A DNA stretch of 62,084 nt, from IMG/VR virus record IMGVR_UViG_3300032267_000768, positions 1 to 62,084 of that record; one strand, given 5' to 3'. Within the stretch, counting starts at the first letter, position 1; every line of letters begins with the position of its first letter. This DNA is from a virus. Positions 17,754 to 57,426 of this stretch are shown here, one piece after another. The notes beneath the pieces are model-generated. The model searched no databases. It saw nothing but the letters and a program-made list of their open reading frames with translations, and was not told where the DNA came from. The translations under genes and the position numbers were made by a program.

Positions 17754-17820
17754 GCTGTATATTTATTTCATTTTACAAATAACGTTTTAAAGGGTTTTTG
17801 GCGTAATTTAGTTAACTTGC

Positions 17821-17849
17821 TTGATATTGAGCAAATATATATGTATAAT
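17821..17849 (+). promoter_or_regulatory. Sigma70-type promoter of the inverted accessory island
   Basis: TTGATA (17821-17826), a 17-base spacer, TATAAT (17844-17849), then AGCATA and an ATG at 17856. The -35 to -10 spacing and the six-base gap from -10 box to ATG are the same as at the left operon's promoter. It predicts a transcript starting at or next to the start codon. No Shine-Dalgarno precedes 17856. Confidence 0.68.
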
Positions 17850-17855
17850 AGCATA

Positions 17856-25063: not shown

Positions 25064-28000
25064 TTGTTGGTTCTCCCGCTATGAATTTGGCCTGTGCTGT
25101 GTTGGATTTACCCAATCCTTTACCATCAGCAGCAGTTGTTTCTCCCCTATTATACCATATTTGTCCACGTTTTTGTATAATTTTTACTTCTGTACCAGCA
25201 GCAGGTTGCTCGCTTAATATAATATTGGCTGAGCTACCATCCCATGTGTTTACTGTGTAATTGGCACTGCTGTCTTCATTAAGATATGGTAATCGTCTTC
25301 CTCCCACAAAAACATCAACCTCATGAGGAGAATTCAACGATTGTGATGAAATAAATGCTGTGGTTGATCCATCAGCAATGTGTTTTTTAGTATATATTGT
25401 GTCAGCATATGGAACAGTTTGTTGACCAGATGCATCAACTACTGATGCTCCAGAAATATGATTTTTAATTGCTGTTCCTAGAGTACCTCTTCTGATATTA
25501 GATAGTGTATTACCATCTTTATAAAGATATTCTATTCTTTCATTGTCAATAAAGATTACTCCTGGTAACAATGTACTACCATCCACAGATTTCAACACAC
25601 TGCCATCGGTTACTGTGATTGTTTTGTCATCAATTGATAAATTTGTTGTCAGTGTTGTTGTGTTTGTTTGACTGATTCTCTTATAGAATGTTCTATTGAG
25701 CATGTCTTTAAATATTCTAAAGCCAGTAGAAAAATTGTTACCTTCGGTAACAAAATACATTATATCAATTCTGTCATTAGATGTTAATAATCTCGTGATT
25801 GTGATCTTATTATCTGTTATTATCCAATCAAACCCCTGTACTAGATTTTCTCCATTTGCCCAAACAAATACATAATCGTTATTCAACGGAGTTTGAAACA
25901 GATAATATTCTCCAGAGTCGTTACCTTTAAACTTTTCTCTGCGTTGATTCATGCCCACAGCATTATTAAATGTTGTTGCTGTAATAATATCTCCTTCAGC
26001 AAGAGTGATACCATCTAGAGTCATGTTGTCTGGTTGTAAAACTATTTGATCATTTTTATCAAAGTAATGCGTTCCTACCTGTGTGGATATAGCAATTAAA
26101 TCCAAATTTGCTGGTGCATCATTAAATATAATTGATTTCGTATCAATATTAACAGCGTAATCACTAAATCGATCTTTCTTAATACCATTTAGGTATACTC
26201 TGACCTTGCTGGGATCAATTATTGTTCCTCCTGGATTACGCAATAATCCAAATCTATAAACACTAACAACAGTGCCTGAACCTGATGTTGAACTTGCGTT
26301 GAACGATATTGTACTTCCAGATATTGAACTACTAAATGATAATTGATCTGATCCTTTGGTGCTTAGGTGCGGTGCGGTGTTAGTATATATTTGTGAAGAA
26401 CTTGCCACTAATGTCACTTCCGATATCGATGCTGCTCCTTCACTTGCATTGTACGCTGTCACAATATAATGAGCTCCGATATAATCAGAAATTTGAAAAG
26501 TGTCTATTTGGGTTTCACCGCTTGAGATTACAGTGTTTCCAACAACATTACTTCCATCATTAGTGTCTCCATCACTCAGCAATATTCTATAAGCTCTAAC
26601 TCTACAATCACCCACATTAGATGACATTAATAATCTCACTTTACCTGCGGCTATATCACTCGAAATTGTGACCATATCCGATGCTCCTGTGTTCACTATG
26701 TTGTACGAGGTAACATATGCGTTTGTCCCATCATGCACTAGTAATGCTTCTATATTGCTTTTTTTTACAGGACCAGTGATGGTCTCTACTGATATAAAAT
26801 ATTTGGCTCCTCTACTAGTGTTTTTATCCCAACCCGGCGTTTCTAATGATACCGTGGCAGAATCTAACAAAGGTAGGTTAATTGTTACAGACGTTCCTAT
26901 AGTATCTACTGTGTTATCACCTAGGCCTATTCTATACCAAGAAACAGAATTTAATGTAGAACTACCCGTACCCGTCAATGACACCAAACCCGAACCTATT
27001 GAACCATCTGTGGTGATATGTTCAGCTATTCCGGTTGAAGTGATAGATGAAGAGCTTACAAAAACATTTGTGTTATCATGAACTAAAGAATATTTAGCAG
27101 TGGCTAATTCTCCTGAAACTTCGTCTCTTGTGATGGCCATATACCAAGCACTGTCGTATTCTGTTTGTAACCACGAGTCTATTGCCGTGGGGTCATTAAG
27201 GATTCCAGTTTTTTCACCAGATTTTACGTCCACATATCCTGTGGATGTGCTGTCATCTTCTGTGGATCCTGCATAGTCAACAAATGAAAAAGCATTGCTG
27301 GATCCATCACCTAGATAGTAAGTGTTGTCGGGTCCTCTTAAAATTTTTCCTTGATGCTCCAGTATGGTTAAACTTGAATAGGGTTCTATTGAACCAGGAG
27401 GATATGACAATGTGTAAGTGTCTGTGCTGCCATCATACACAATCTGTTGTGATCGAATCTCAGAGTATGCTCTTCCGTTGCCTGCAGGTTGATTGAAAGA
27501 TGCGACCTGTACGCTGGTGCCTGCGGCTGGAGGATTTGCTGTGGATCCATCTCCTGTGTGTAAACTTATGGTTATATCTCTATTGTTTACTGTATAAGTG
27601 TAATCTGTAGTAGGAACACCATCTACAGTAACAAATAATTGACTCATCGAGCTGTCTAATTGATAAGTTTCTCTACTCTTAGTTGCAAAAGAATATGTGG
27701 ATCCATCTCCAACGAATGTATCGAGAACCATATAGTTGCTGCCAGATATAGCAAAACTTTTTATAGAAATTTTACTGCTAACTGCTGGTGCTGATGCAAA
27801 TGTAATTGTTTTGTTTTGAATATCTACTGTGTATTCAGAATTTAATGTCTGTGTTACTCCGTCTAAAGAAACTACCACAGATGATTGTGTACCTGCTAGT
27901 TGTCCTATTGAGAATAAGGTAGTTGATGCATCTCCGATATAATTTTTATGTATAATAAAAGGCACACCCGATGTTGGAGCAGTGTAAACTCGAATATCTA

Positions 28001-31000
28001 CAGTATCAAAAATGCTACCAGGTAAATTTTCTTCTGGAGCATAGCTGGTTTCTGGTGTAATAAAAGCATCTCCTTCCACAATAATATCACTAGGCGATAC
28101 TCCTAATGCTGATTTAAATAATCCTCCTGTGATTAGAGTATCCAAAGTCTTATCATCGGTGGGTGTTAAAACTCCATCATCATCAAACGGTATCAATTCA
28201 ATAACTGTATTTGCAGGAGTAGGATTACCATCGTCACCTAAGATGGTAAAAGTCTTAGTTGTGCCATCTCCTCTTAACACTTGTGTTCTCTGTCTGACTC
28301 TATTAACATTTGCCATAGCAGCGGGGTATTGTACTGATGAATCACTGATATCAGTAAAATAAACTGTGTATACGTCTGTTGGTTGAGGAGCGTAATCAAA
28401 AGTAAAGCTGGTTGTAGTACCGTCTCCGTAGAATATTTTGACTCTACTTAAACCAAAACTATCCCATGGCAAGTCATACCATGGAGATCTATCCCAACCC
28501 TGACCGTTATCAAAAGCTAATCCTGTAACCATAACTCCACCGTAGTCTACTCCTGTCATCACTTGAGATAATTCATTACCTGGCATACCAGCATCTGGAG
28601 CATACAATCCAAGCGTTCTTTCTGCTGCTGTAATGTATGGTTCGTCTCCTCTTAATCTTGTAAGATTTGTTAATCCTTCATCAAAAGTTTCTGTACTGGT
28701 GTATGTTGCAATAACTTTATAAAGTTTATTGTCATGCCTAATTAAATCATTATAAGCATAGGTAGTATTGCTAGTCCATTGTAACACTGTGGCTGTGGAT
28801 TGTACTCTGTCAAATTTGATTGTAGTACTGATATCTCTTACAATATCATTTCTAAGATTTGCATATGCTCTTGCCGAATTTACAGGAGTATTGCCATTAG
28901 CACCACCTCCTGTTATAATAACTCTAGGTATTGAAGTATATTTTGTTCCAGCAGTTAATACAACTATTCTAACCACTGCTCCTTCTTTGATCACTGCTCT
29001 AGCTGTGGCTTGTGTCACATCAGACAATGTGTAAATTTCATAACTTTCAGGTCTGTCTGTAATAGCAATGTTTTGTCCTGTAGTAGGCATGTAAAAATCA
29101 ACACTAGAAAACTCATTAAATTTAAATAACTCACTCGTTCCTGCTCCGCCTGCTTGTGAGTCAGCAAGGTCAGCATCTACTTTGGCTGTATATAATGGAT
29201 AAAAATATCCATATTGGCCGGAAGAAGCACCTTGTGTACTGGTTCCTAACACTGTAAATGGTCCAACTGTTTTTATGGTTCCTCCGACTAGTGTAACTGT
29301 GGGAGCAGTGATATAGCCGCTACCACCATCTATCACTGTGATAGAGTCTACATATTTTTTATAATTGTCTCTCCAAAAACGATAAGGATATGTGCTTAAT
29401 ATTGCCGCATCATTGGATATGTTAACATTTCTAATAGTATCTCCATCATAGAAAGCAGGCAAATCAAAATCTGTATAGATACCGTCCTCAGTATCTAATC
29501 CAGTATAACCTAATTTATATTCTCTAATTTTGGTATGATATGGTTTTATTTCGTTAATATACTCTTCAACATAATCTTCTGTGGTAACTCTATAACTTTT
29601 TCTTTGATCTAATTCTCTTAAAACATTAGATACATTAATAAATGATGTTTTTATTAACCAATCTACATATTTTTGTTGTTCTAAAACTTTTCTTAAACCT
29701 ATAAAGAAAATATTATTATATTCTACTTTTAAATCTCCTATGAATAAATCATCTCTTATAGCTGTTAATATTTTTCTTAACTCTAATTTAGGTTCGGAGT
29801 CAAAGAAATTAACATCAAATGCATCTTGACCATCAAACCCTGTGTTATCGATTGAATAATCATACAGTGACGTTTTTAATTGAATAGTACCATTCTGTGT
29901 AGCAATGTTCTTGAATCCTTCTGCGGTGCTTTCAAATATTTTCCAACCACCAGTATCGGCTGTTAAAACTTTAACATATTTGCCATTGTCTAGAGATAAT
30001 GCATCTAATTCATACTGATAATTTAATTGTTTCTCAATAATAGCATTAGAATCAAATGATTCATCATACCAATCAACACGATCATAATAAGCACTGGTCT
30101 TGTAGGTTTGTAATTTAGTTCTAACCCATTCAGCGCCATTCCAATTATAGATAGCCCAAAAACCTTTACTAAAAGTTTGATCATTTTTTACTAATATATT
30201 TGTTGTACCGCTGATATCTCTAGTATCAATATATGTTAAATCATCATAGGTTTCTACTGTGTCATCCCATTCCCTAGATATAGCATTTGGTTCAGCTTCT
30301 GCTGAATTTAAATTATCATATCTAATATTATCTGCCAATTGATTTTTTGCTAATACCGAATTAACATAATCTATAATTTCTTTTAGTGCATTAAATCTAT
30401 CCACATACCAGCTCTGTCTTGGTCTAACTTTATTACCATATTTTTGATTTAACGGCAATGCAATATCTGGAACTTCGTTGCCTGCTTCGTCTGAACCAAT
30501 CAAACTATCCCACCACTTCTTTTCAATCTGTGTATTAGGTGCGTCGTCTTTGTCTCCTTCTTTAATCAGTTTCCAAACATAATGAGAATCACCTTCTTTA
30601 ATTGTATCTTTATAGGTAATATTCAAAACAGTGTTGTCATTAATGATATCGTTTTTAATATTAAATGCAATTAACTTGTTTGTTCCTGACACTGCAAAAT
30701 ATCTAATTCCTGCTGCTTTTGGATTGTTTATTATATTGGCTATGTAACCGGTGGTATTTTTTCTAGTAACAACACTTTTTGCAATGTTGGGTAAGAATAC
30801 ATTATTTTTTACCCAATAATAATAATAATTTATAAATCCATCTGAACGAGAATCATATTTTTGTCTCAACGTAAACACAGTGTTATCTGGATATAACGGT
30901 TTTCCTGATACTTTCTGACTTAATCCTACAGCAGTATCTGCTAATTGATTCCACTCCGATGGCAATAGTGTAGTTTCTACCCATTCATAAATGTCAATTT

Positions 31001-34000
31001 CACTACCTGGAAAAAGTTTGCCCCAATTCTTTGTTTTGTACTCTTGATTTCCTTGTTCATACCATATCCATCGAACTTTGCTCAAATCCCACCAAACTTC
31101 TCCTACGTGTTCTTCAGCCCAAGACATGGTTGGTTTAACATTAACCGCTTCTGTGCCTAAATTGTAAACTGCTGGATCCCATTCAGTTTTATAATTAATT
31201 TCTCTGTCTGCTATACCTAATATTCTACCTTTAATGGGATCATAATAATCAATATATGATTTAATTTTTTGTTCTGCTCGATCAAAAATAAAAGCAGAAT
31301 CTATTTGTCGATCATCAATTAATGTTTCCTCTTCTTCTACCGCGTTCCAACTATATGATCCGGGTGTTGCTAAATCAAACACAGCAACCATACCATCATT
31401 TTCACGAGTAGAATTATCAGAAAATTTTGTATCATCACCTGGAGCACCTACAAATACACTGTTATTAATTACAAAAACAGATCTACCAAAATCATCATTG
31501 GCTGACACGTTAGAAGTTATTAACTTGCCATCTAAAACAAAATTGTCATTGTATTTGGTTGCTGTAAAAACTCCCCCAGATCCTATATTAAGATCTACTA
31601 TTTGTGTGTCTTGTAAATCAAATGTAGTCAATCCACTATCAAATTTTACTGTTCGACTGTTTGCAAATTTTTCTGCTCCTATAACTAATCTATCAGCATC
31701 ATGATTAAGATGCACTGTAGATCCAAATTGCATGTTAGTTGCAGTTTCTGGAGAATAAATTGTTTGTTGTAAAGTATATGTGTTGGTTGATCCGTCTGCG
31801 TTCCATTTATAAATGTAAACAGCACCTGCATCTGCTTGTGATAAGTTGTCTCTACCTGGAGCAGAAATAATCAAAGTTGCTCCGTCCTTACTCATAGATA
31901 GACTCTCTCCAAACGCTGTGTTTAATGTGCTGTCATCTGCTGATACACCTTTGAGTGTTTGCACATGAGAGAATCCTAAAACACTGCTGTCATCGTTGCT
32001 TGGACTGTTTCTAACAAAAATTTCTACCATACCAGCATCATCTGGACTTACTGAAGATACTGCTAATATATCACCATTATCATTTATAGCCATTCTATGA
32101 CCAAATCTTTTATTACTGCCTGATTGGCTGCTGACAACACTATTATCCTGTGTCCATGCTGCAAATGTACTATCTTCAACCGGAGTATATGTGTATAGAT
32201 ACACTATTCCTGTATCATTAGCATAACCTGGAGCTCCAACCAAAAGATATTTTTGTCTAGTATATTTGTTGCTGTCTATAGTTGGTTCTGCCATAGCATG
32301 CGACCAACCAAAATTTATATTTGCCGATGAGCTGTCGTCTGCAGGTTTTATAGTTGTAAATTCATTATATGCTTTTGTCACGGAATCCCATATGAATAAT
32401 TTTACTAAACCACTGTTGTTGCGTCTTGTGCTGCCGTCTATTGTTAAAATATTAGCATATGGTGCTCCTGCTACAACAAAATTTTCATCAGTACTCATTG
32501 ATAAACTATGTCCCAGTCGACCGGTGCCAGTGGTGCTGTCCGACATTACAGCAGTGTTTGCGAGTGAAAATGCTACTCCAGGATTATTTTCTCCTCTGCT
32601 AAAGAAATATAAAGCTCCTTGAGACGTTGCTCCTCGACTGCCAGGCGCAGAAATTATAACAAATCTTCCATCAGATCTAGCAATTGTTTTATAACCAAAC
32701 TCTTGATTATTATCTGTATCCGGAGATCCTATTCTAAAAGTTTTGTAAGGATCGATCTTTTCATAAATTTTCCAATTGGCTCCTGCATTGTCTACAAAGA
32801 TTTTATCCCCAGGCAATCGATTAACAGCATCTGCTGCTTGATATTCGTTATAAGGTAAAACAGTATTAACAGTGTCCAACGAAGATAATCTCACACTTAC
32901 AAAACGATATAGATTACCATATGTTGTTATTGTGGATGCATCTGTTGATATGAAAGATCTGCTAATTGTAGAAGCATTTGAAAAATTAACTAAAATAGAA
33001 GTTGCATCTATAATCTGTGTAATTTGGTATACGATATTTAATGTAGGAAATTGACTATTGTTTATCGCTATATATTGATTCACTATTAAATTGTGTACTC
33101 CGTTAAATCCTAATATAACCTGAGTATTATTGTTTATTGGTTTTATTGTGATAAGATTAAGTCCTGTATACGTGATCCTCTGTACGTCCCAATCGCTGTT
33201 GGGTTTTTTTGCTATCCATATCAAATCTTTATTATTAATCTCATTAACATTTAAATTTAATAAGTCTTTTTCATCAAATGCAGTGTGTTGTGCATCTGTT
33301 ATTCTCACATATCCTGCAGTTTTATATTTTTGAACAAAATCTCTATCATATCCCTGTTGAGTATAATCATATCTAGAGAACGTAGTTGAAGCTGTATACT
33401 CTAGAGGTTTAGAATAAAACTTATCGCTAGTTACTGACAACGATCTTGTATAATCTTCAGTATCATTATCATCATTCAATAATTCAATACTTTGAGCATT
33501 GCTTGTAAAATTATTGTCTGATAAGGTAAGTTGTATCGACTTGCTGCCGTCAAGATTTCCAAATTCTCCTACTTTTATCATCCACTCTGGATACACTGTT
33601 AAATTGATATTTTCTCCATAAAATTTGGCTTTAACTAATCGGTCTATGGCATTCTGTGTGCCTTTTTCTCTAATAAAGCCTTGATAGAATTTATATTGAG
33701 AAACGTCATTTAAGAAAAGATTTTCTAAATATGACCTAGATTGATACCCTGTTAAATGCTGTGCTAATTTTTGTTGTGTTTCATCAAAATTGTTAGTTTC
33801 TAAATTATAAAAATCGTTGAATTGTGAAATTTTATAATCAAAGTTAGGTATTAATTGAGCCGATGGTTTAGATTTTTTCTTAGTCCATTTTTCAAAATCG
33901 AATTCTGTGCCAGAATTATGATTTTTTTTAGACACATAGAACCCATTGGCATACTCTACTGTGTTTCCTATTTGATAGTCTGTATTTGCAATCCATCTGT

Positions 34001-37000
34001 CTACTTTAGCTTCATCAAATATAAATCCTGGAGAATAATAATCCCCATTCCAATCACCTGTTTTCCATCCTACTAATTTTAATCTCTGCTGACGAAATCC
34101 TGTAACCAATTCAAATATTATGTCAGAAAACACTGTGATATTATCAAAAAGTATAATTTGTTCTTTTTGCACAGCATTCATTGAAATGTTATAGATGCCT
34201 GCTTCGGTATTTTTTACAGCAATAGAAAATTTATTACCAACACGTTTGGTTGAAATATATTGAGTTTCTATAGCACGACCAGCAGAATCTAAAACTGAAT
34301 ATTGTCCTAATGAATTTTGAAATTTACTGATAACACTATTATCAGTAGCTAAAACAAATCCTGCAGCGCCTGGACTCAATGTTATTGCTGAGCCTAGAGC
34401 CCATCCTTGTCTAGTCCAATATAAGAATTCTTTAGCACTGGTTTCCCAATTGTTTATTTCTTTTATTTCGTTGCTAAATTTATCAAATATAAATCCTTGA
34501 AGTTCTAAATATTTTCCATAACCAATTAAAAAATTAATCACTTGTTGAACAGTTTTAAACACAGCACCATAAGGAACAACAGTTTCGTTTTCACTCCAGT
34601 CGTTATAAATGATTGCACTGCTGTTTCCGATAGTGATCGAATGAGCATTTTTATTTTCTACAGGATTTAAAACTCTAAAATAAGGTTTGATTGTGTTATA
34701 TCCAATAACTTTGTACCCACCTTCAAGTGTGCTGCCATCACCAGTAACATTAGAATTTAATTCAACCAACACTCCCGAATAATCATAATCTCTAACAGGA
34801 TTACTGATTCTAAATAAAACTTTATAGTTTTCATTAGGTATAAATTGAGACCCTGCTGTAGATCCTGGGCTTATGCTGTCTGTTAAAACTTTTAAATTTT
34901 CTTTATCAGTAAATCCTCCCAATTTATATGCTAATTGTACATTGAGATTTTTTAATTTGTCATAGAAAAAGGGAGCTGGATCTAATCCGTTCTTAATTAG
35001 ATAGTTAACTATAAAAGGTTGATATCCAGCAGTGATTCCTGTTGTAGATCCGCCGGTTGTTTCTAAATAATATTTGGTAGATTTAAGTGTTGATGCTACT
35101 TCTGTTTCACTGTTAATATAATTTCCTGCTACATTCTTTTTTAATCTACTATTGTCTAAAAAATATCCAAAGAATTTAGCTGGCTTAGTTAATGCTAATA
35201 ATTTCATTATACTGAAAGGATATTGACTGCTTCTACGCCACGCCGTTTCACTTGGTCCTTGGTCTCCAAATTTCCATTTTTCATTAATTCCAAGATTTTG
35301 ATACTGATCTATTAATCCGATAGCCATAGGTGATTTTAAATTGCCAGAGTTATCCACAGGAATATAATCTAATAAGCCGGGTCTTTTGTATTTGTTTACA
35401 GTTTCTTCTAGCCCTGTGTTATAGCCTGCCGTTAGATCATTCCATAGTAATTCGTTACCTGAAGTATAAGGTGCTGGTCCATAAGTGTCTATCCACCAAG
35501 ACGGTTGTTCGCTGTGCCCCAACATTTCCCATGGATGAGTGTGTGGTCGATCTGTATCATAGAAATATTTGTATATGCCTCTCCAATACCCTGGAAGAGT
35601 TTCACCATTTATAATATTTTTATTTTTACTGTAATTGAAAGTAAAATAATCATTCTCATCATAGTTTGTATTGTTTTGATATTCTATACCATTTTGTCCT
35701 GCCCAGTTATAAAAATCTAAACTTAATATACTGTTAATTTCACTGTTATTATATTCGGAGGTCCTAAATACTCCAGGTCTTATATCATCTTCTGATAATA
35801 ATTCTGAATTAAATACTGTTTTGCAATTGTTATAAATTCTTTTTTCTAATTCTAGTAAAAGATCATCACGATAGTCTCCAAAAGCAATAGTTCTGCTACC
35901 ATCGTGCCCTACGATAACTTCCACAGGTGTTCTATACGTGTTATCAATAATTTTTTCTGGTTTAAATTTTGGATACATTCCTAGTTTTGTTGGTGTTGGC
36001 GGTACAAAACTTCCTGCAGTATTTTCATAATCTTTAATTGTAATTTTATCTCCGGTGTTTAAGGCTTTTGTTATGGTTACACCATCTGATTCTGTGTTAA
36101 AAATATAGTCATACCCTAGAATTAATATTTGGTCATTAAGATATACATATACTGCTCTAGTACTCGGAACAGTAGTATCAAACTGTGAATCAATAGCATA
36201 TTCTAGTTCTTCGGGATCTTGTACTGTATAATTTCTCACAGTAAGTTTTTCTCCATGCCCTATCATGTCATCATAATAAAAAGGAAAACTTGCATTCTTA
36301 TTATTAGAAGTATTTTTAATTATTTCGTTAACTCTGTCTGAAATTAATCCTTCGTGTGCTGTTCCTTGTGTATTAACTAAAAACGTTTCTTTAAACCTTT
36401 GGTATTCATTATTACAATATTCTATCGATTTAATAGCATTCGCATTTTGATCTATTAATAAAAATATAGCCTGAGGTAAAGCAGAACCGTGTTGAATTAT
36501 AGAACCACCTTCTAATCTCACATTGCCTATGTCCCTTAAATTGCTGCTGCCAGGAGTATCACCAACCATTTCAACATTTTTTTCATTGATGTCGTGTAAA
36601 TGATTTAATATTTGTCCGTATGTAAAATCAGACAGTTGTGCATTGAACGGATTTACTGATATGTTTTCGGGTATTTCGTATATGCCTTTGCTTGCAATTT
36701 TTTTTGCTGAACTGTAACAATTTAACTCAACTAAATCGTTTACATTTAAATCTTTAGCAAATTTTACATATTTGTAGGTCAATCCATCTACCAGTGTGTA
36801 ATCTGTTCCTAAATTTTGAGTTATGTGATTAACATCTACAGTTACAGATAAATCAGATAACGATTTACTGTTTTCAAAAACATCCACCGGAAATAATTTT
36901 AATTCATCTCTGGTTACTGTAAATAACCTTTTAACTCTCTGTCTGCTCTCTTCTTTTCTTTCAATCCAACCGCATCTGCTGACATGATTATCTTTAGAAA

Positions 37001-38990
37001 GAATCTGATGTGCATGTCCTGTATTAAAATTCTTTGTGTAAGATTGTTCATTAACGTTATATTCAAAAGATCCTGTAGCAAAATCAGAAGTAAAAACAAT
37101 ATCACCTACATTTTTTATTGTATTGTACTTTATTTGTAATCCTAACACAGGATCTTTTGCAGCCATTGAACTAATTTTGTATTCAAAAAGTTTAGATCCT
37201 GTGAAAGTGGAATTTGGATACACATCATTGTCATCAAATGCTTTGTGATTTTTATCAAACAATGAGAACAGTGGTGGTTGATTAATATCTAATTTAGATT
37301 GTCCTTCTATCCATGCTCTTTCAACGGTGCTGTAATAAAAAGTTTTTGATTGATTAATTGCTCCTAGCTCAACCGATACAGCGTCCCCGTCTAATGGTAG
37401 AGCATCTGAATCTTCAGTTAATCTCAGCGTGGTTACTTCTGCTCCTGCCACACTAACAAAGTTAACCACATATATTCTATTATTAATTAAAGGATCTGTG
37501 TCTGCAGTAATTAACAATCTCATGCCGTCTCTCAAAGGCACGCCATCCACAATATATCCTGTTTGGTTGACCATTTTTGAAAAAACATCTTTGGTCACGT
37601 TATCAACCAACGCTACTGATTTTTTAGCAGTGGTTCCATGATTGAATAAAGACAATCCAGAATCAAATTCTATAATGGGTCTTTTGGCTCTGTCTGTTTC
37701 TAGTAGTACTGGTGTATAGCCATTTGCTACAGCAGTAGCTTCTATCACTGCTTTGTGAAACCATCTATTGTATTTGCTCCAAGCATTGCCATCGATACTG
37801 TCTCTTTTAATAGTGATATAATCTGGTGTTACTGGTCTATAAAAACTAACCGAATATGGTCTGTCTGCATAGGGCACACCATCATATGGTTCTGTAGATT
37901 CTTCAGTGTATGATCCTGTTACAATTAAATTTGCTGTGTCTGTTAATGTAATTGATGCTCCTACGCCTTCAACATAAAATTCTTTTCTAGCGTAAGTAGA
38001 ACTAGCGACATTATCTTCAAATCGCACTTTCATACCATTTGATAATTTGGTACCTGATTTTAAAGTATAATTTTTTGTTCCTATGATCTCGTGTTCGACA
38101 TCTATTTTTGTTGTCTCACTTATGGTTCTTATTGTGAATATGCCCTGCATGCTTGCATGATTACCACATTGATAATATAAAACAGCAGGAGCACTTGTGG
38201 GTACAGTAAAAGTTAATGTGCCTTTGTCTGTGCCATTGCCTGACACTCCTGTACTGTATATTACCGAAGTGCTGCCATCTTCTGCTATACCGGTTTTGAA
38301 TGGTTCAGTCATTATGTAGAAAGGATGTCCCTGTGTATCTAAAATAAACTTATAAGTGTTACCTCTGTATAGAGTAATTGACGGATTATCTAGGCCTGGA
38401 TATATTCCAAAATTATAAGCAGATTGTCCAGTGTGTGTTACTTCAATTTCAGAAACTGTATTGGTTCCGTTGTTGGCTATCAGAATAGGATTAGGTCCTT
38501 CTGGCATCCAGTAATATTCTCTGTAATTGATTAACTTGTCAAAATCTATAGATGGATCCCATGAATAAACTTTTTCTTTATTAAGTCTATCATGATTAGT
38601 AATATTGCCTCCAAAGAATTTTATTTGATTAATATAATCATCATAGGTAGCAGTAAATTTTATTTGATCTTCTGGATTAATCGAAGAAGTATCTTTGTCT
38701 GTGTATGTTACTGTGGGTTCTAATTGATAATTGTCTCTGTCTTCAATACCAGATTCAATATACTTGTCTGTGGATAATCTAGTATAAGAATCTTTTCTAC
38801 CAACATATCCATCTAATCTAATTAAACTACCTGGTTGGATCAATTGATCTAGTGTGGTGTTTAAAAATCTTTCGTTAACATCGGTTCTATAAAAAGCAGG
38901 TAAATGTGCAATTGATCTACGAAGCGTTACTCCTTTTTCATCAGTAACGACGTCATAGTTTGATTGACTATCTAAAGGTTTGTCTACCAT
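25050..38990 (-). CDS. Giant virion structural protein (4646 aa) with FG-GAP propeller and cupredoxin-like segment
   Basis: 4646 residues, nearly 14 kb. The N-terminus (RRSIAHLPAFYRTDVNERFL) resembles the giant tail or baseplate proteins of marine T4-like phages. Residues ~196-290 look like a cupredoxin: GHPF with His222 and CGNHASM giving Cys275, His278 and Met281. Residues ~2095-2545 hold seven FG-GAP-like repeats (such as FGHRMAINDNGD, FGESLSMSKDGA, ISAPG, VGAPG), the number needed for a closed beta-propeller. From about 3517 to the end there are at least seven short modules opening (G)DGST-x-F. Starting just after gp6 and ending in the fibre connector gene, it likely forms a large peripheral baseplate or fibre-like appendage. 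No internal stop or frameshift. Confidence 0.8.
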   Translation of the reverse strand: MVDKPLDSQSNYDVVTDEKGVTLRRSIAHLPAFYRTDVNERFLNTTLDQLIQPGSLIRLDGYVGRKDSYTRLSTDKYIESGIEDRDNYQLEPTVTYTDKDTSSINPEDQIKFTATYDDYINQIKFFGGNITNHDRLNKEKVYSWDPSIDFDKLINYREYYWMPEGPNPILIANNGTNTVSEIEVTHTGQSAYNFGIYPGLDNPSITLYRGNTYKFILDTQGHPFYIMTEPFKTGIAEDGSTSVIYSTGVSGNGTDKGTLTFTVPTSAPAVLYYQCGNHASMQGIFTIRTISETTKIDVEHEIIGTKNYTLKSGTKLSNGMKVRFEDNVASSTYARKEFYVEGVGASITLTDTANLIVTGSYTEESTEPYDGVPYADRPYSVSFYRPVTPDYITIKRDSIDGNAWSKYNRWFHKAVIEATAVANGYTPVLLETDRAKRPIIEFDSGLSLFNHGTTAKKSVALVDNVTKDVFSKMVNQTGYIVDGVPLRDGMRLLITADTDPLINNRIYVVNFVSVAGAEVTTLRLTEDSDALPLDGDAVSVELGAINQSKTFYYSTVERAWIEGQSKLDINQPPLFSLFDKNHKAFDDNDVYPNSTFTGSKLFEYKISSMAAKDPVLGLQIKYNTIKNVGDIVFTSDFATGSFEYNVNEQSYTKNFNTGHAHQILSKDNHVSRCGWIERKEESRQRVKRLFTVTRDELKLFPVDVFENSKSLSDLSVTVDVNHITQNLGTDYTLVDGLTYKYVKFAKDLNVNDLVELNCYSSAKKIASKGIYEIPENISVNPFNAQLSDFTYGQILNHLHDINEKNVEMVGDTPGSSNLRDIGNVRLEGGSIIQHGSALPQAIFLLIDQNANAIKSIEYCNNEYQRFKETFLVNTQGTAHEGLISDRVNEIIKNTSNNKNASFPFYYDDMIGHGEKLTVRNYTVQDPEELEYAIDSQFDTTVPSTRAVYVYLNDQILILGYDYIFNTESDGVTITKALNTGDKITIKDYENTAGSFVPPTPTKLGMYPKFKPEKIIDNTYRTPVEVIVGHDGSRTIAFGDYRDDLLLELEKRIYNNCKTVFNSELLSEDDIRPGVFRTSEYNNSEINSILSLDFYNWAGQNGIEYQNNTNYDENDYFTFNYSKNKNIINGETLPGYWRGIYKYFYDTDRPHTHPWEMLGHSEQPSWWIDTYGPAPYTSGNELLWNDLTAGYNTGLEETVNKYKRPGLLDYIPVDNSGNLKSPMAIGLIDQYQNLGINEKWKFGDQGPSETAWRRSSQYPFSIMKLLALTKPAKFFGYFLDNSRLKKNVAGNYINSETEVASTLKSTKYYLETTGGSTTGITAGYQPFIVNYLIKNGLDPAPFFYDKLKNLNVQLAYKLGGFTDKENLKVLTDSISPGSTAGSQFIPNENYKVLFRISNPVRDYDYSGVLVELNSNVTGDGSTLEGGYKVIGYNTIKPYFRVLNPVENKNAHSITIGNSSAIIYNDWSENETVVPYGAVFKTVQQVINFLIGYGKYLELQGFIFDKFSNEIKEINNWETSAKEFLYWTRQGWALGSAITLSPGAAGFVLATDNSVISKFQNSLGQYSVLDSAGRAIETQYISTKRVGNKFSIAVKNTEAGIYNISMNAVQKEQIILFDNITVFSDIIFELVTGFRQQRLKLVGWKTGDWNGDYYSPGFIFDEAKVDRWIANTDYQIGNTVEYANGFYVSKKNHNSGTEFDFEKWTKKKSKPSAQLIPNFDYKISQFNDFYNLETNNFDETQQKLAQHLTGYQSRSYLENLFLNDVSQYKFYQGFIREKGTQNAIDRLVKAKFYGENINLTVYPEWMIKVGEFGNLDGSKSIQLTLSDNNFTSNAQSIELLNDDNDTEDYTRSLSVTSDKFYSKPLEYTASTTFSRYDYTQQGYDRDFVQKYKTAGYVRITDAQHTAFDEKDLLNLNVNEINNKDLIWIAKKPNSDWDVQRITYTGLNLITIKPINNNTQVILGFNGVHNLIVNQYIAINNSQFPTLNIVYQITQIIDATSILVNFSNASTISRSFISTDASTITTYGNLYRFVSVRLSSLDTVNTVLPYNEYQAADAVNRLPGDKIFVDNAGANWKIYEKIDPYKTFRIGSPDTDNNQEFGYKTIARSDGRFVIISAPGSRGATSQGALYFFSRGENNPGVAFSLANTAVMSDSTTGTGRLGHSLSMSTDENFVVAGAPYANILTIDGSTRRNNSGLVKLFIWDSVTKAYNEFTTIKPADDSSSANINFGWSHAMAEPTIDSNKYTRQKYLLVGAPGYANDTGIVYLYTYTPVEDSTFAAWTQDNSVVSSQSGSNKRFGHRMAINDNGDILAVSSVSPDDAGMVEIFVRNSPSNDDSSVLGFSHVQTLKGVSADDSTLNTAFGESLSMSKDGATLIISAPGRDNLSQADAGAVYIYKWNADGSTNTYTLQQTIYSPETATNMQFGSTVHLNHDADRLVIGAEKFANSRTVKFDSGLTTFDLQDTQIVDLNIGSGGVFTATKYNDNFVLDGKLITSNVSANDDFGRSVFVINNSVFVGAPGDDTKFSDNSTRENDGMVAVFDLATPGSYSWNAVEEEETLIDDRQIDSAFIFDRAEQKIKSYIDYYDPIKGRILGIADREINYKTEWDPAVYNLGTEAVNVKPTMSWAEEHVGEVWWDLSKVRWIWYEQGNQEYKTKNWGKLFPGSEIDIYEWVETTLLPSEWNQLADTAVGLSQKVSGKPLYPDNTVFTLRQKYDSRSDGFINYYYYWVKNNVFLPNIAKSVVTRKNTTGYIANIINNPKAAGIRYFAVSGTNKLIAFNIKNDIINDNTVLNITYKDTIKEGDSHYVWKLIKEGDKDDAPNTQIEKKWWDSLIGSDEAGNEVPDIALPLNQKYGNKVRPRQSWYVDRFNALKEIIDYVNSVLAKNQLADNIRYDNLNSAEAEPNAISREWDDTVETYDDLTYIDTRDISGTTNILVKNDQTFSKGFWAIYNWNGAEWVRTKLQTYKTSAYYDRVDWYDESFDSNAIIEKQLNYQYELDALSLDNGKYVKVLTADTGGWKIFESTAEGFKNIATQNGTIQLKTSLYDYSIDNTGFDGQDAFDVNFFDSEPKLELRKILTAIRDDLFIGDLKVEYNNIFFIGLRKVLEQQKYVDWLIKTSFINVSNVLRELDQRKSYRVTTEDYVEEYINEIKPYHTKIREYKLGYTGLDTEDGIYTDFDLPAFYDGDTIRNVNISNDAAILSTYPYRFWRDNYKKYVDSITVIDGGSGYITAPTVTLVGGTIKTVGPFTVLGTSTQGASSGQYGYFYPLYTAKVDADLADSQAGGAGTSELFKFNEFSSVDFYMPTTGQNIAITDRPESYEIYTLSDVTQATARAVIKEGAVVRIVVLTAGTKYTSIPRVIITGGGANGNTPVNSARAYANLRNDIVRDISTTIKFDRVQSTATVLQWTSNTTYAYNDLIRHDNKLYKVIATYTSTETFDEGLTNLTRLRGDEPYITAAERTLGLYAPDAGMPGNELSQVMTGVDYGGVMVTGLAFDNGQGWDRSPWYDLPWDSFGLSRVKIFYGDGTTTSFTFDYAPQPTDVYTVYFTDISDSSVQYPAAMANVNRVRQRTQVLRGDGTTKTFTILGDDGNPTPANTVIELIPFDDDGVLTPTDDKTLDTLITGGLFKSALGVSPSDIIVEGDAFITPETSYAPEENLPGSIFDTVDIRVYTAPTSGVPFIIHKNYIGDASTTLFSIGQLAGTQSSVVVSLDGVTQTLNSEYTVDIQNKTITFASAPAVSSKISIKSFAISGSNYMVLDTFVGDGSTYSFATKSRETYQLDSSMSQLFVTVDGVPTTDYTYTVNNRDITISLHTGDGSTANPPAAGTSVQVASFNQPAGNGRAYSEIRSQQIVYDGSTDTYTLSYPPGSIEPYSSLTILEHQGKILRGPDNTYYLGDGSSNAFSFVDYAGSTEDDSTSTGYVDVKSGEKTGILNDPTAIDSWLQTEYDSAWYMAITRDEVSGELATAKYSLVHDNTNVFVSSSSITSTGIAEHITTDGSIGSGLVSLTGTGSSTLNSVSWYRIGLGDNTVDTIGTSVTINLPLLDSATVSLETPGWDKNTSRGAKYFISVETITGPVKKSNIEALLVHDGTNAYVTSYNIVNTGASDMVTISSDIAAGKVRLLMSSNVGDCRVRAYRILLSDGDTNDGSNVVGNTVISSGETQIDTFQISDYIGAHYIVTAYNASEGAASISEVTLVASSSQIYTNTAPHLSTKGSDQLSFSSSISGSTISFNASSTSGSGTVVSVYRFGLLRNPGGTIIDPSKVRVYLNGIKKDRFSDYAVNIDTKSIIFNDAPANLDLIAISTQVGTHYFDKNDQIVLQPDNMTLDGITLAEGDIITATTFNNAVGMNQRREKFKGNDSGEYYLFQTPLNNDYVFVWANGENLVQGFDWIITDNKITITRLLTSNDRIDIMYFVTEGNNFSTGFRIFKDMLNRTFYKRISQTNTTTLTTNLSIDDKTITVTDGSVLKSVDGSTLLPGVIFIDNERIEYLYKDGNTLSNIRRGTLGTAIKNHISGASVVDASGQQTVPYADTIYTKKHIADGSTTAFISSQSLNSPHEVDVFVGGRRLPYLNEDSSANYTVNTWDGSSANIILSEQPAAGTEVKIIQKRGQIWYNRGETTAADGKGLGKSNTAQAKFIAGEPTNVPE

Positions 38991-48726: not shown

Positions 48727-48734
48727 TATTTATA
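48727..48734 (-). promoter_or_regulatory. T4-type late promoter (TATAAATA) for the baseplate operon
   Basis: TATAAATA on the minus strand, an exact match to the T4 late -10 element, 26 bases upstream of the gp48-like ATG. It sits in the divergent spacer opposite gp55, whose product is expected to recognise it. Confidence 0.7.
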
Positions 48735-52858: not shown

Positions 52859-53117
52859 ATGACCCAAACCATCGCCGTGCTATAGGCGTTGAATGTTTTA
52901 AACACCACATGGTCCATTCTCTATCAGTAAATTTGGCTCGTACCACTATTTTATCTGGTTCAAAAGCAATGTCACATAGATTCTTTAGATATAACTCTTG
53001 CACATGCGGGAAACGTGCTAACCAACCCTCAAACCATATCTGAGCTTGGAAAGCATCATCATACTTTCCAACGATTTTTAACTCTCCTATGACCCTAAGT
53101 GTTCCATGTCGCTTCAT
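52857..53117 (-). CDS. Conserved small phage protein, 86 aa
   Basis: 86 residues that I cannot assign. MKRHGTLRVIGELKIVGKYDDAFQAQIWFEGWLARFPHVQELYLKNL is followed by a strand with DKIVVRAKFTDREWTMW. The alternation of strands and one helix suggests a small alpha/beta fold. There are no metal or nucleotide motifs. Its start overlaps the end of the GIY-YIG-like gene (ATGA), so the two form a pair. The stop lies in the bidirectional terminator of the histone-like gene. Confidence 0.55.
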   Translation of the reverse strand: MKRHGTLRVIGELKIVGKYDDAFQAQIWFEGWLARFPHVQELYLKNLCDIAFEPDKIVVRAKFTDREWTMWCLKHSTPIARRWFGS

Positions 53118-53578
53118 AGGTCTTTATCAATAATGAGTGACCCATGCACTCGCACACGTATGTGTCCATTGTAGTACTGGTCCGATTCTAAAACTTTCCT
53201 AGCAAACTGCTCTCGAGCTTCTACGTAGTTTAATTCTGCTTTGCTCTTGCAATAATAAAGTATCTCTCTACGAAATCGGTCTCGACCTAAAGATTCTATA
53301 TCTCTAGTTAACTGGTCACTGCTGCCATAGTAGTCCATCCAGTCACTTGCCACAGCGCCTCTTATTTTTTTGCGTATTTTTTTTCCGTTTTTTTGTGTGT
53401 GCATTTTATATCGCGTAGTTTTGAATCTAGATAATTTTTTTCCCACATACATGCGCCCATTCTCAGTGTTGGTAATAAGATACACAAATCCCACACACTC
53501 GTTTGGTAATTCTATTACCGGTTCATTTCTGTAAATCCACTGCATGTCAGTATTTAAACTCAAGAACCTGCCAATCAT
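53114..53578 (-). CDS. GIY-YIG-like nuclease
   Basis: 154 residues. GFVYLITNTENGRMYVGKK near 28-46 is the paired-strand GIY...YIG-type motif, with VYL and YVG in the two positions. The following basic segment (KMHTQKNGKKIRKKIRG), DWMDYYGSS and a later FRREILYYC plus YVEAREQFA (catalytic Glu candidate) match the layout of GIY-YIG nucleases found in T4-like phages. It may be a stand-alone homing or repair nuclease. The start is uncertain: ATG at 53578 or, closer to the conserved part, ATG at 53545; neither has a good ribosome site. It adjoins the structured-RNA region, which is worth noting because GIY-YIG genes often accompany mobile introns. Confidence 0.6.
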   Translation of the reverse strand: MIGRFLSLNTDMQWIYRNEPVIELPNECVGFVYLITNTENGRMYVGKKLSRFKTTRYKMHTQKNGKKIRKKIRGAVASDWMDYYGSSDQLTRDIESLGRDRFRREILYYCKSKAELNYVEAREQFARKVLESDQYYNGHIRVRVHGSLIIDKDL

Positions 53579-53639: not shown

Positions 53640-54046
53640 GGCTCTATAGCGTCTTTGGTAAAACAGTGAACTACTCCTATTCAGTTAGGCGGCGAATCAC
53701 TTGACGCAACAGGCAAAAATGACGGAGCTCTGGGAAACAGATCCAACTCCAGGTTCATATGATATTATCATACAAAGATCATGTGAATTCGCGTTGCAAT
53801 GAATGAGCTAACGGGTACAGCGCAACCGCCCGGCGACAGCAGCGATGTATGATGACTGCGAACTCAGCACATATGCAGAGTAGGTCTATTCGGCTAGCAA
53901 TAGCCGAATCATGACTGCTCATCTAGCACATAAGGCGCACGATGCTATCGCATCGCGCTTAACAATTGTTGTATCAAGATGTAAAAGGAAACGAGCGCAA
54001 GCGAAGTTTCAGATGTGCGTAGCACATCTTGTTAGGATTGCAACTG
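53640..54046 (+). ncRNA. Candidate large structured non-coding RNA
   Basis: The 468-base gap from 53579 to 54046 has no plausible gene, is visibly richer in G and C than its surroundings and is packed with helices. From 5' to 3': GCGTC (53649-53653) with GACGC (53703-53707), enclosing AGTGA (53665-53669) with TCACT (53697-53701); a ten-pair helix 53754-53763 with 53778-53787; 53791-53797 with 53822-53829 (one bulge); a hairpin 53862-53881; a nine-pair stem with a GCAA tetraloop 53888-53909; a bulged hairpin 53933-53960; GAAAC/GTTTC capped by a GCAA loop 53988-54010; and an eight-pair hairpin 54011-54029. The GNRA loops, and G-U pairs in two helices, exist only on the plus strand. No tRNA, tmRNA tag or RNase P core is seen. 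Boundaries approximate. Confidence 0.6.
53852..53932 (+). repeat. Direct repeat ATGACTGC-N6-AGCACATA (two copies)
   Basis: Exact copies at 53852-53873 and 53911-53932, offset 59 bases, both inside the candidate RNA. The six middle bases differ (GAACTC and TCATCT). Between them lies the GCAA-capped nine-pair hairpin. The shorter AGCACAT recurs at 54022-54027 with one base lacking. A repeated sequence unit in a structured RNA may mark duplicated domains or protein sites. Confidence 0.65.
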
Positions 54047-54277
54047 TTAAAAGAATGGCTGTCCAGTTTTTTTAGTAACGTCTAGATTGTCTTTAACTAT
54101 ACGAGAAACAATATCGCGATCCGAAGGACTCAGTGCCAATGCTTCTTGATAGGTAACTCCACCTCGCATGTACCAACAGATTTTAAACAGCTCGTGCTTG
54201 ATGCTTTTACCTTCATTTTCAAGATCTTTTAGATATTTTATAAGGTCAGATTCCGAGAGCGATAATAGTTTTATACG
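54047..54277 (-). CDS. -1 frame extension of the gp26-like gene (gp51-like, by ribosomal frameshift)
   Basis: 76 codons read in the -1 frame from 54277 to a TAA at 54047. The product starts RIKLLSLSESDLIKYLKDLE, continues HELFKICWYMRGGVTYQEALALSPSDRDIVSRIV, and ends KKTGQPFF. There is no ATG, GTG or TTG before Met37, and the open window begins only two codons upstream of the slippery heptamer TTTTTTC. The WYMRGG and LSPSDRDIV segments look like small tail-assembly chaperone extensions, and in T4 gene 51 follows gene 26. The frameshifted protein would have 360 residues. Independent translation from a non-standard codon is the alternative and is less likely. Confidence 0.72.
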   Translation of the reverse strand, partial: RIKLLSLSESDLIKYLKDLENEGKSIKHELFKICWYMRGGVTYQEALALSPSDRDIVSRIVKDNLDVTKKTGQPFF

Positions 54278-55128
54278 AAAAAATTTGCGTTATCAAATGT
54301 GATCGGCACTTCGTAGGTTGCTGGAGCGCCGGCTTTAATCTGTTCTTCTGTGGCTTTGACTTTGACAGGTTTGATAGAACCCTGTTGACGAATATCACCC
54401 AATTTGTTTTCTAACTCTTTGATTGTTCTAGCGTCTGCGTTTTTGATAAAATCTAAAATGGCTGTTTTATCAGTCACTGTTTCTCCTGTGGGCAGTTGAA
54501 TACGTTCGATATTGTTGATCAACAAGCTCACGTTGAGGTCGCTCAGCACTCGGAAGCTCTCAGTGAAACGTTTGGTTTTTTCTTCGGCGCTGAGATTGCT
54601 CTGAGCCACTTGTGCGTAAATTCTCTGTTGTTCAAATGTTTTTAACTGTGCATCTGTGATCTGTTTGTAGGTCAGTGGAGCAATGTGCAGGGTCAGCCCA
54701 TCCTGCAGCACACAGCGGTCTGTGATTTTTTCCTGTCTAATAGTTTCCAACATCTGCGGTAGATTCACCACGTGTGTTTGTGTTTCATTGGTTCCTGGAA
54801 CCCCTGCTGTGATTTCCATGGTCTCTCCATAGCTGGCAATTCTAATAGCAATCAACACAGTATCAATGTCATGATTGACCAGTTGCCATGGATCCTGTAT
54901 GGTAGGAATACAACTTTTAATCACATCCACAGTGGCCTGTCCATTCATCATGCTGTCAGGGGTGCGGAAACTCAATTCATCCATGGCAGTCATGGGCAAC
55001 ACAGGGTGTTCTCCCGTAGTGGTCTTTTGCACCACCGACTCGGCATAGTATTTTTCACCAGAGGGCAAACGTATGCTGATCTGCGGCTGTCTATAATAGC
55101 GTTTTAACGGGTTTGTATTTTCTACCAT
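54271..55128 (-). CDS. gp26: Baseplate hub assembly protein gp26-like
   Basis: 285 residues. The opening PLKRYYRQPQISIRLPSGEKYY, followed by HPVLPMTAMDELSFRTPDSMMNGQATVDVIKSCIP and DIDTVLIAIRIASYGETM, is the signature of the T4_baseplate/gp26 family (T4 gp26 is about 208 residues). In T4, gp26 and gp51 help build the hub and are thought not to stay in the virion. The gene ends NANFFV, with the slippery heptamer T-TTT-TTC placed three codons before the stop, so a -1 shift adds 76 residues. The upstream region is shared with the divergent tape-measure gene. No clear Shine-Dalgarno precedes the ATG. Confidence 0.85.
   Translation of the reverse strand: MVENTNPLKRYYRQPQISIRLPSGEKYYAESVVQKTTTGEHPVLPMTAMDELSFRTPDSMMNGQATVDVIKSCIPTIQDPWQLVNHDIDTVLIAIRIASYGETMEITAGVPGTNETQTHVVNLPQMLETIRQEKITDRCVLQDGLTLHIAPLTYKQITDAQLKTFEQQRIYAQVAQSNLSAEEKTKRFTESFRVLSDLNVSLLINNIERIQLPTGETVTDKTAILDFIKNADARTIKELENKLGDIRQQGSIKPVKVKATEEQIKAGAPATYEVPITFDNANFFV
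54277..54283 (-). promoter_or_regulatory. Programmed -1 ribosomal frameshift site TTTTTTC
   Basis: Minus strand, in the zero frame T TTT TTC, the X-XXY-YYZ arrangement used for tandem tRNA slippage. The normal reading GCA AAT TTT TTC GTA TAA stops two codons later, while the -1 reading stays open for 76 codons. I see no strong hairpin immediately downstream and no Shine-Dalgarno-like stimulator upstream. Confidence 0.75.
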
Positions 55129-55138
55129 TTTTGTATTC

Positions 55139-55146
55139 TATAAATA
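55139..55146 (+). promoter_or_regulatory. T4-type late promoter (TATAAATA) for the tape-measure/portal genes
   Basis: Exact TATAAATA on the plus strand, 61 bases upstream of the tape-measure-like ATG and inside the divergent spacer with the gp26-like gene. Consistent with gp55-driven late expression of the plus-strand structural genes that follow. Confidence 0.65.
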
Positions 55147-55206
55147 TACATTATATTAATGTGCTTGTCACTATTTATGTGAGCATATTTTAGGGGTTTT
55201 TAAAGC

Positions 55207-57426
55207 ATGGACGAACAGGAACTAGCAAAGATATTGGCTAAAGCCAACCAAGATCAAGCCAAGGAAATTACCAGACTCATCAGCGATCTTAGGAAAGCTC
55301 CCATACTCAGCTCATCCCAAATCAAGAGAGTCAGTGATTCTTTAACAAGTTTAACCAAAAACATCAAACTAGGGGAAAAAGAGAATAAGGCCCTGCAGGA
55401 AATTATAAGCCAAGTCATAGAAATCAAAGAAAAAGAGATCAAGGCCACCAAAACTTTAAACGAAAGATTTTATACCCTATTTAGAGCGTTCGGCAAAAAT
55501 GAACTAGCCGCACAATCTTCCGCAGACGCATTCACGGGTGCAGCCACAACAACCGTTGCTCTAGGCAAGGCAGCCTACAAGGGGGCAGGCGATATATCAA
55601 ACTTCACCGATGCCTTCAAAGATAGACTGGGTCTCATAGGCACCGGTTTACAAAATTTTGGCAGTTTCGCCGACACCTCGCTAGAGGCATTCCGCACACT
55701 GTCCAATGTGGGTGCCAACTTCGGACAAAATTTATTCACACTGAGAGAAACTGCTGCCAGTGCAGCTCTGCCACTGCAAGACTTTGTCAAATTGATCTCT
55801 GCCAACAGCGAAAGTCTAGCAGCCCTGTATGGTAGTAGCACGCTGGGAGCAAAAAGATTTTCTCAACTCAGCGAACAATTTAGAAGAACCACTATTGAGC
55901 GTTTAGGACCTTTAGGATTTACAGTAGACGAGTTAAATGATGTTTTACTAACCACATTAAATTTAGAAAGAAGAACAGGCACTTTTGTTGCTGGGGCAAC
56001 TCAAGATCAAATCGCATCAGCCGAAGGATTTGCAACAGAACTAGACAAACTGTCCAAACTCACAGGACAACAGAGAACTGTACTGGCCAAACAGATAGAA
56101 TCTCAACTAGCTAACGAACGTTTCACAGCATTCCTAGGAGGAGCAAGCAAAGAGGCTCAGCAAAGACTGAGTGCATTTTCAGCTTCTATCGGTGAATTGG
56201 CTCCAGGATTAAAAGAAGGTTTCCAAGATTTAATTGCCAACTCAGGTACTCCGGTTACCGAAGCAGCAAGGATGCTGGTACAGAACATACCAGAAGCCAG
56301 CGGCATTATTCAACAGTTGACTGCAGGAACTTTAGACTCTGCACAGGCCATGATAATGTTGAGAGATGCTGCTCAACGATCTAATAAAGCTCTAGCAGGT
56401 GTTGCAGTAACAGGGAAGGTGCCTTTTGCAAGATTATATAGTGAAGTTAGTAAACTTGCATCAGCTGAACTTGATCTAAAAGAAGTTACTGAAGAACAGA
56501 AAGCAGCACAAGACAAAGCGACCAAATCTCTTGCACTATTTCAAGATTCTACCAAAAGACTGAGTTCAAGTTTTCAAAGCATCGAAACAGGATTCTACAC
56601 AGTATTGGGTGGATTTATAGGAACCACAGGCAATCAACTTAACAACGGTGTAAAAGATATAGCAGACGGTATTAATAAAATGAACAACGGTACCAAAGCT
56701 CTGTTGTTCATGAGTAAAACCATTGGGGGATTCTTTTTAGACAAAGGAGGACAAATAGCCATACAAGCTGCAGGTACTGCTGCCGGTATTCGAATGGCTG
56801 GTGGAGGCATGGGTGGAGGAAGCGGAGTAGGAGATTTATTAGGAGGCAAAGTCGGCAAAGGATTAAAAATTGGTGCAGGCATAGGATCGGCTGCAGGAGT
56901 GGCCGGAGGTACTGCTATGGCATATCAAGCAGACACAGGATATGGCAAGGCAGCCGGCATAGGAACTTCTGCGCTGTCAGGTGCTGCACTGGGTGCTACT
57001 ATCGGTTCAGTAATTCCCGGACTTGGCACTTTAGCAGGAGCAATTATAGGTGGTGTTGGCGGATTAGTATCAGGCGGAATAGGAGCAGGACTAGGAGCAG
57101 ACATCAAAAGATCCACAGGCACATTCGGTGAAACAGGATTACCATTTGAACCCAAAACCAGTCTATTGCATGTGGAAGCTGGTGAACGAGTATTGAATAG
57201 ACAAGAAGCACAAGACTATAATGCCGAAGGCTCTGGAGGAAATGCACAATATACACAACTAAATGCCCAAATGACACAATATAATATGACCGCTAAAGAA
57301 ACATTAGAGCTGCAAAAAGCCAATTACAAAGCATTAAATACGTTGGTTAACATTAATATGGCCACAGAGAAGAATACCAAAAAAACTTCTAAAGTGGTTG
57401 ATAAAGTAGGGCCTTCTATTGTATAA
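55207..57426 (+). CDS. Tail tape-measure-like structural protein
   Basis: 739 residues. The first 110 are charged coiled coil (RLISDLRKAP, IEIKEKEIKATKTLNERF), the middle is helical and Ala/Leu-rich, and residues ~525-650 are a hydrophobic glycine/alanine stretch (GIGSAAGVAGGTAMAY, IGSVIPGLGTLAGAIIGGVGGLV) with the look of pore-forming segments. It then has LLHVEAGERVLNRQEAQ near 665, a motif common close to the C-terminus of tape-measure proteins. The gp26/gp51-like pair lies just upstream on the other strand, echoing the assembly-chaperone/tape-measure pairing of other long-tailed phages. In T4 the corresponding role belongs to gp29; direct gp29 similarity is not evident to me. Confidence 0.65.
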   Translation: MDEQELAKILAKANQDQAKEITRLISDLRKAPILSSSQIKRVSDSLTSLTKNIKLGEKENKALQEIISQVIEIKEKEIKATKTLNERFYTLFRAFGKNELAAQSSADAFTGAATTTVALGKAAYKGAGDISNFTDAFKDRLGLIGTGLQNFGSFADTSLEAFRTLSNVGANFGQNLFTLRETAASAALPLQDFVKLISANSESLAALYGSSTLGAKRFSQLSEQFRRTTIERLGPLGFTVDELNDVLLTTLNLERRTGTFVAGATQDQIASAEGFATELDKLSKLTGQQRTVLAKQIESQLANERFTAFLGGASKEAQQRLSAFSASIGELAPGLKEGFQDLIANSGTPVTEAARMLVQNIPEASGIIQQLTAGTLDSAQAMIMLRDAAQRSNKALAGVAVTGKVPFARLYSEVSKLASAELDLKEVTEEQKAAQDKATKSLALFQDSTKRLSSSFQSIETGFYTVLGGFIGTTGNQLNNGVKDIADGINKMNNGTKALLFMSKTIGGFFLDKGGQIAIQAAGTAAGIRMAGGGMGGGSGVGDLLGGKVGKGLKIGAGIGSAAGVAGGTAMAYQADTGYGKAAGIGTSALSGAALGATIGSVIPGLGTLAGAIIGGVGGLVSGGIGAGLGADIKRSTGTFGETGLPFEPKTSLLHVEAGERVLNRQEAQDYNAEGSGGNAQYTQLNAQMTQYNMTAKETLELQKANYKALNTLVNINMATEKNTKKTSKVVDKVGPSIV

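Follow-up and report, generated by a model that had tools for sequence, protein, structure and literature searches.

In lambda gpG/gpGT and in the tail assembly chaperones (TACs) of other long-tailed phages, -1 slippage near the 3' end of the short chaperone gene adds a C-terminal domain (Xu, Hendrix & Duda 2004; PMC5009743), and the same is predicted for the gene described here. A 2016 review by Atkins et al. (PMC5009743) described G-T frameshifting as conserved among long-tailed phages "except T4". For T4 itself, gp26 and gp51 have been listed as hub assembly chaperones, gp51 being required and absent from the particle (PMC3004832). The earlier note on this DNA knew of no report of such frameshifting in T4-like phages, but one was published in 2022. 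According to the PRFect paper (PMC10885494), which cites Vladimirov, Gautam & Davidson (Virology 2022), a short gene and a longer fusion gene take the place of frameshifting in some T4-like phages, and the Adele paper (PMC12846349) cites Vladimirov et al. 2022 for polyT slippery sites in the TAC-N genes of T4-like phages. As represented in these two papers, the systems of Vladimirov et al. share with the present locus both the gene family and the logic of a short and a long form. A literature search on cyanophage or gp26/gp51 frameshifting found nothing direct besides reference 44 of PRFect. The mechanism is already known in kind, and the locus reported here is a well-supported new example of it. 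The present evidence supports the 2022 study, which took up the T4 exception named in the review, and adds an uncultured clade and jumbo phages of the RaK2/Atu_ph07 type to its scope.

The locus lies on the minus strand of the window, that is, the whole 62-kb virus record (62,084 nucleotides) analysed in this study. Judged from sequence, it is very probably the tail assembly chaperone gene of a T4-like myovirus, with a short and a long form produced by programmed -1 ribosomal frameshifting. Its features are as follows.

54271-55128, minus strand: gp26-type 0-frame gene for the predicted short tail assembly chaperone (TAC-N), 285 aa, identified by its ORF, PF12322, phrog_150 and AF2/Foldseek
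54277-54283, minus strand: slippery heptamer T_TTT_TTC, read from the sequence, kept in relatives and codon-invariant
54280-54286, minus strand: overlapping second canonical heptamer, A_AAT_TTT, present in the window and in 70 of 73 IMG/VR relatives
54271-54273, minus strand: 0-frame stop TAA, one codon past the heptamer
54047-54283, minus strand: -1 frame extension (TAC-C) of 78 codons, counted from the slipped FF up to the stop, with an open frame, a coding signature and an AF2 model
54246-54250, minus strand: TCTGA, a possible stimulator that starts 27 nt 3' of the heptamer, marked by Ser12 codon conservation in the clade

The gp26-type ORF ends in GCA AAT TTT TTC GTA TAA, with the heptamer at 54283-54277 followed by GTA and the stop. 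The earlier note placed the heptamer correctly, and its account of the -1 frame was also accurate: this frame becomes open two codons ahead of the heptamer, stays open past the FF pair for 76 codons until a stop at 54047-54049, and contains no ATG, GTG or TTG before an internal Met (residue 39 from FF, or Met37 when counted from the following R). The predicted fusion product has 360 aa, as against 285 aa for the short form. In-frame T_TTT_TTY heptamers are found only twice among the 46 genes (20,140 codons) of the window, and that at 54283-54277 is the only one located at a gene end. The open -1 frame alone was dropped as evidence, since the tightly packed genes of the window yield many such frames and several neighbouring genes are followed by longer ones behind their stops; the frameshift question must therefore be decided by the relatives.

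The 0-frame protein passed the profile cut-off of PF12322 (44.7 bits against a cut-off of 24.5, E=1.7e-11) and matched phrog_150 (E=7e-14). Its AF2 model (pLDDT 86) aligned in Foldseek with T4-like baseplate hub assembly proteins at a TM of 0.81, while searches of the PDB by sequence and by fold returned no match. The -1 extension was modelled by AF2 as helical (pLDDT 84); Foldseek with this model gave no significant match, and the extension of the window found no credible match in Pfam and PHROG.

With the 0-frame protein as query, IMG/VR yielded 73 loci of 42-94% identity, and ten cultured jumbo phages of 25-32% identity were compared, including RaK2, 121Q, GAP32, CBB, Munch, PA5oct, Atu_ph07, Phosso, SCTP-2 and a Vibrio phage. 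Duplicates were allowed for in the counts (L085 is the window; L097-L099 are L001, L007 and L005; L206 is L091; L205 is L096). T_TTT_TTC stands at the same place in 73/73 IMG/VR relatives and is followed by a -1 extension, which is cut by the contig end in L025 and L038. Both the heptamer and the -1 extension are likewise present in 10/10 cultured jumbo phages. The second heptamer overlaps the first in all but three of the IMG/VR relatives, and its AAT is invariant in 59/59 sequences. Codon usage was then compared across 60 distinct window-clade genes, in which 64 degenerate codon columns have a conserved amino acid. The only columns among the 64 that use a single codon are AAT, TTT and TTC of the slip site, and the remaining conserved Phe and Asn columns use mixed codons. 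The conservation of heptamer position and -1 frame that the earlier note had asked an alignment of relatives to show was thus found, together with invariant slip-site codons. Pairwise differences in the -1 frame number 37317, 20109 and 71341 at codon positions 1, 2 and 3, respectively, a third-position bias that indicates purifying selection on a translated protein.

The slippage that we infer, its rate and the chaperone roles would then operate as follows. Most ribosomes would read the gp26-type frame to TAA and yield the 285-aa short form (TAC-N), and some would slip by -1 on A_AAU_UUU_UUC and add 76 more codons, giving the 360-aa long form (TAC-NC). By analogy with gpG/gpGT of lambda, the tape measure protein would be coated by the short form, with the long form serving to recruit subunits of the tail tube. 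Neither form would be kept in the finished virion, as T4 gp51 and lambda suggest. The lambda proteins belong to another protein family and use another heptamer than the gene of the window.

It is very unlikely that the extension is instead a separate small gene, translated by termination and reinitiation (translational coupling) at the gp26 stop or close to it. Such a reading has some appeal in database records and in start codons: in the records of KVP40 and P-SSM2 a small ORF is annotated separately (as gp51 in KVP40 and cyanophages), an ATG closely follows the stop in many cyanophage-type relatives, and Phosso, KVP40 and Cygsa01 show ATGA or TAATG overlaps. In the window, however, no ATG, GTG or TTG is found near the junction, and across the clade the start positions vary or are absent, with no start codon in the first 25 codons of the extension in 17 of the 73 window-clade rows with a complete extension. 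In six jumbo phages (RaK2, Munch, GAP32, CBB, PA5oct and SCTP-2), moreover, 9-33 nt separate the heptamer from the 0-frame stop downstream, and the conserved FFR..LL of the extension starts exactly at the heptamer, before that stop. Homology of the extension thus begins ahead of the 0-frame stop, which argues that it is not a coupled downstream gene. The GAGG of cyanophage-type phages is separated from the downstream ATG by more than 20 nt, a distance that the spacing rule for ribosome binding sites makes too large for it to serve this ATG, and reinitiation would leave the codon-level freezing of AAT-TTT-TTC unexplained.

Slippage of RNA polymerase on the T6 run, by which a share of the mRNAs would carry an indel fusing the two frames, is extremely improbable, even though a T6 homopolymer occurs in all clade relatives and T8 in HTVC008M. 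The run is always in register for tandem -1 tRNA slippage, and its terminal C, which a mechanism based purely on a T run does not demand, is kept in nearly all sequences. T6 is also short for efficient transcriptional slippage, for which longer runs are usually needed. Finally, decay or chance as the origin of the open -1 frame, or a sequencing error that has split one gene, has a negligible probability: long open frames after stops are indeed common among the packed genes of the window, but the arrangement is common to 83 relatives, ten of them cultured phage genomes, its divergence is biased to third positions, and no degraded extension was seen in relatives of like identity apart from the two contig-end cuts. 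Programmed -1 ribosomal frameshifting, as the earlier note had predicted it, accounts for the frozen slip-site codons, the register of the run and the homology that begins at the heptamer.

Candidate stimulatory signals differ between clades. In the window clade, Ser12 of the extension, whose codon begins the TCTGA motif, is encoded by TCT in 56/56 sequences that have this residue, as against 7-12% of the other Ser codons in the same genes. No pairing partner for TCTGA was found within -250 to +300, and no downstream stem-loop or pseudoknot was detected, the single-sequence fold giving z=+0.42 and RNAalifold zero pairs over 36 sequences. In cyanophage-type phages, an SD-like motif precedes the heptamer in 52/56 sequences, typically GAGG at -14 to -11 and thus ending 10 nt before it (e.g. 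L091-L092, L095 and L101-L180), whereas such a motif upstream of the heptamer was found in 0/54 window-clade sequences and 0/10 jumbo phages. The Glu codon at this site is GAG in 51/54 cyanophage-type sequences, and GAG makes up only 25% of the Glu codons in those genes. The spacing of GAGG matches that of known SD stimulators of -1 frameshifting, as in dnaX. These two clade-specific cis signals, GAGG in cyanophages and TCTGA in the window clade, may be new, and as conserved elements they offer candidates that can be tested directly as determinants of the frameshift rate.

The slippery site is also present in other T4-like groups. A search with PF12322 found one gene each in S-PM2, P-SSM2, HTVC008M, KVP40 and Cr30 and two in T4. 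T_TTT_TT[CT] with a -1 extension occurs in S-PM2, P-SSM2, KVP40, Cr30 and HTVC008M, in Aeh1, Cronobacter S13, BUCT608 and IC12, and in 80/80 further cyanophage-type loci. The frame of L185 is interrupted in the middle of the gene, probably through an error in the contig, which explains its missing heptamer; L192 stops within the gene. Pseudomonas phage Cygsa01 (L202, 2072-2982) has no slippery run, and an ATG overlaps its gp26 stop (TAATG), a third way of getting the C-terminal piece; in Vibrio phage Kuja the only slippery-type run is C_CTT_TTT. In some relatives, as Cygsa01, Kuja and T4 illustrate, the long form or the C-terminal domain is obtainable by other routes, and the device is therefore widespread and not universal. 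The cyanophage and KVP40 loci have the layout of the window, T_TTT_TTC included, but are annotated as separate genes, gp26 and a small "gp51" ORF, that of the KVP40 record being described as similar to the C-terminal 40 residues of T4 gp51. In the genomes of the uncultured clade and of the RaK2/Atu_ph07-type jumbo phages, annotation of the chaperone locus gives a single "baseplate hub" gene and an ORF that is hypothetical or absent. Protein databases built on such annotation would therefore lack the long form, as would proteomics searches run against them.

Comparison with T4 clarifies how the two arrangements are related. T4 gp26 and gp51 both match PF12322, as does the protein of the window, and are encoded by two genes on opposite strands, which makes a frameshift between them impossible. 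The earlier note had described genes 26 and 51 of T4 as adjacent and separate; they are adjacent, but they lie on opposite strands, and gp51 comprises a whole gp26-type domain plus the extension. The two proteins are paralogues. The extension of cyanophage-type phages matches the C-terminus of T4 gp51 (hhalign 97.4%, E=9e-12), and that of P-SSM2 matches phrog_634, "baseplate hub assembly catalyst" (E=1.6e-29), as well as the last 50 positions of phrog_150, which are covered by T4 gp51 and not by T4 gp26. The C-terminal piece of gp51 sits in the -1 frame of a single gp26 gene in cyanophages, KVP40 and HTVC008M. T4 gp51 is thus a long form encoded in one frame and gp26 the short form, a pair for which gene duplication is the simplest explanation; the end of T4 gene 26, GAG TTC TTT GAG, has lost the slippery run. 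The abstract of the 2022 study reportedly describes several T4-like groups that use frameshifting and a T4 group in which genes 26 and 51 are separate. The proposal of the earlier note that the gp26/gp51 pair is the T4-type equivalent of the frameshifted chaperones is borne out in substance by these matches.

Its term "gp51-like" fits the extensions of cyanophage type well and that of the window less directly. In hhalign, the window extension gave 33% against T4 gp51, a weak similarity, and 99.7% against the jumbo-phage extensions, and a joint window/jumbo profile gave 64% against the cyanophage-type set. As the direct match to gp51 is weak for the window clade, the term rests there on position, on the shared 0-frame family and on the intermediates. 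A possible but rather doubtful history would start from one ancestral frameshift gene that acquired lineage-specific cis elements, namely GAGG in cyanophages and the double heptamer with TCTGA, as a new type of stimulator, in the window clade, with T4 dropping frameshifting by duplication into 26 (short) and 51 (long).

In lambda, the tape measure gene lies downstream in the same operon, whereas the candidate tape measure gene of the window is divergent from the chaperone gene. The following features belong to this neighbourhood or resemble its promoters.

55207-57426, plus strand: divergent neighbour, 739 aa, candidate tape measure protein, matching phrog_14121 "virion structural protein" (E=8e-8)
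55172-55178, minus strand: ATAAATA, resembling a T4-type late promoter, upstream of the gp26-type gene; found by pattern scan, putative function
55139-55146, plus strand: T4-type late promoter box TATAAATA, found by pattern scan
48727-48734, minus strand: T4-type late promoter box TATAAATA, found by pattern scan

The product of 55207-57426 is long and has a glycine-rich hydrophobic stretch. In the RaK2 record, the ORF at this position is noted to resemble a tape measure protein, but direct BLAST between it and the window product was insignificant (E=0.027). The statement of the earlier note that a tape-measure-like gene adjoins the chaperone gene is plausible, with weak support from size, composition, the phrog_14121 match and the annotation of the RaK2 counterpart. 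The stretch that separates the gp26-type gene from the candidate tape measure gene contains two divergent boxes, TATAAATA and ATAAATA. The window has only two copies of TATAAATA, as against 8.6 expected, and both stand directly before structural genes.

On the other side of the chaperone gene, a SegE-like GIY-YIG homing endonuclease is encoded at 53114-53578 on the minus strand (PF19835, E=3.6e-32), and the approximately 400 nt between it and the extension (53640-54046) contain no plausible gene and gave no Rfam match. Elsewhere in the window, a single ORF of 4646 aa (25050-38990, minus strand) carries FG-GAP repeats and a weak carbohydrate-binding match, and its product is probably a giant virion or tail protein. 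In addition, radical-SAM/SPASM-like proteins, with Pfam matches at 926-2098 and 17817-18869 only, are encoded at 926-8087 (minus strand) and 17817-18869 (plus strand) next to glycosyltransferase-like ORFs, an unusual cargo for a T4-like phage.
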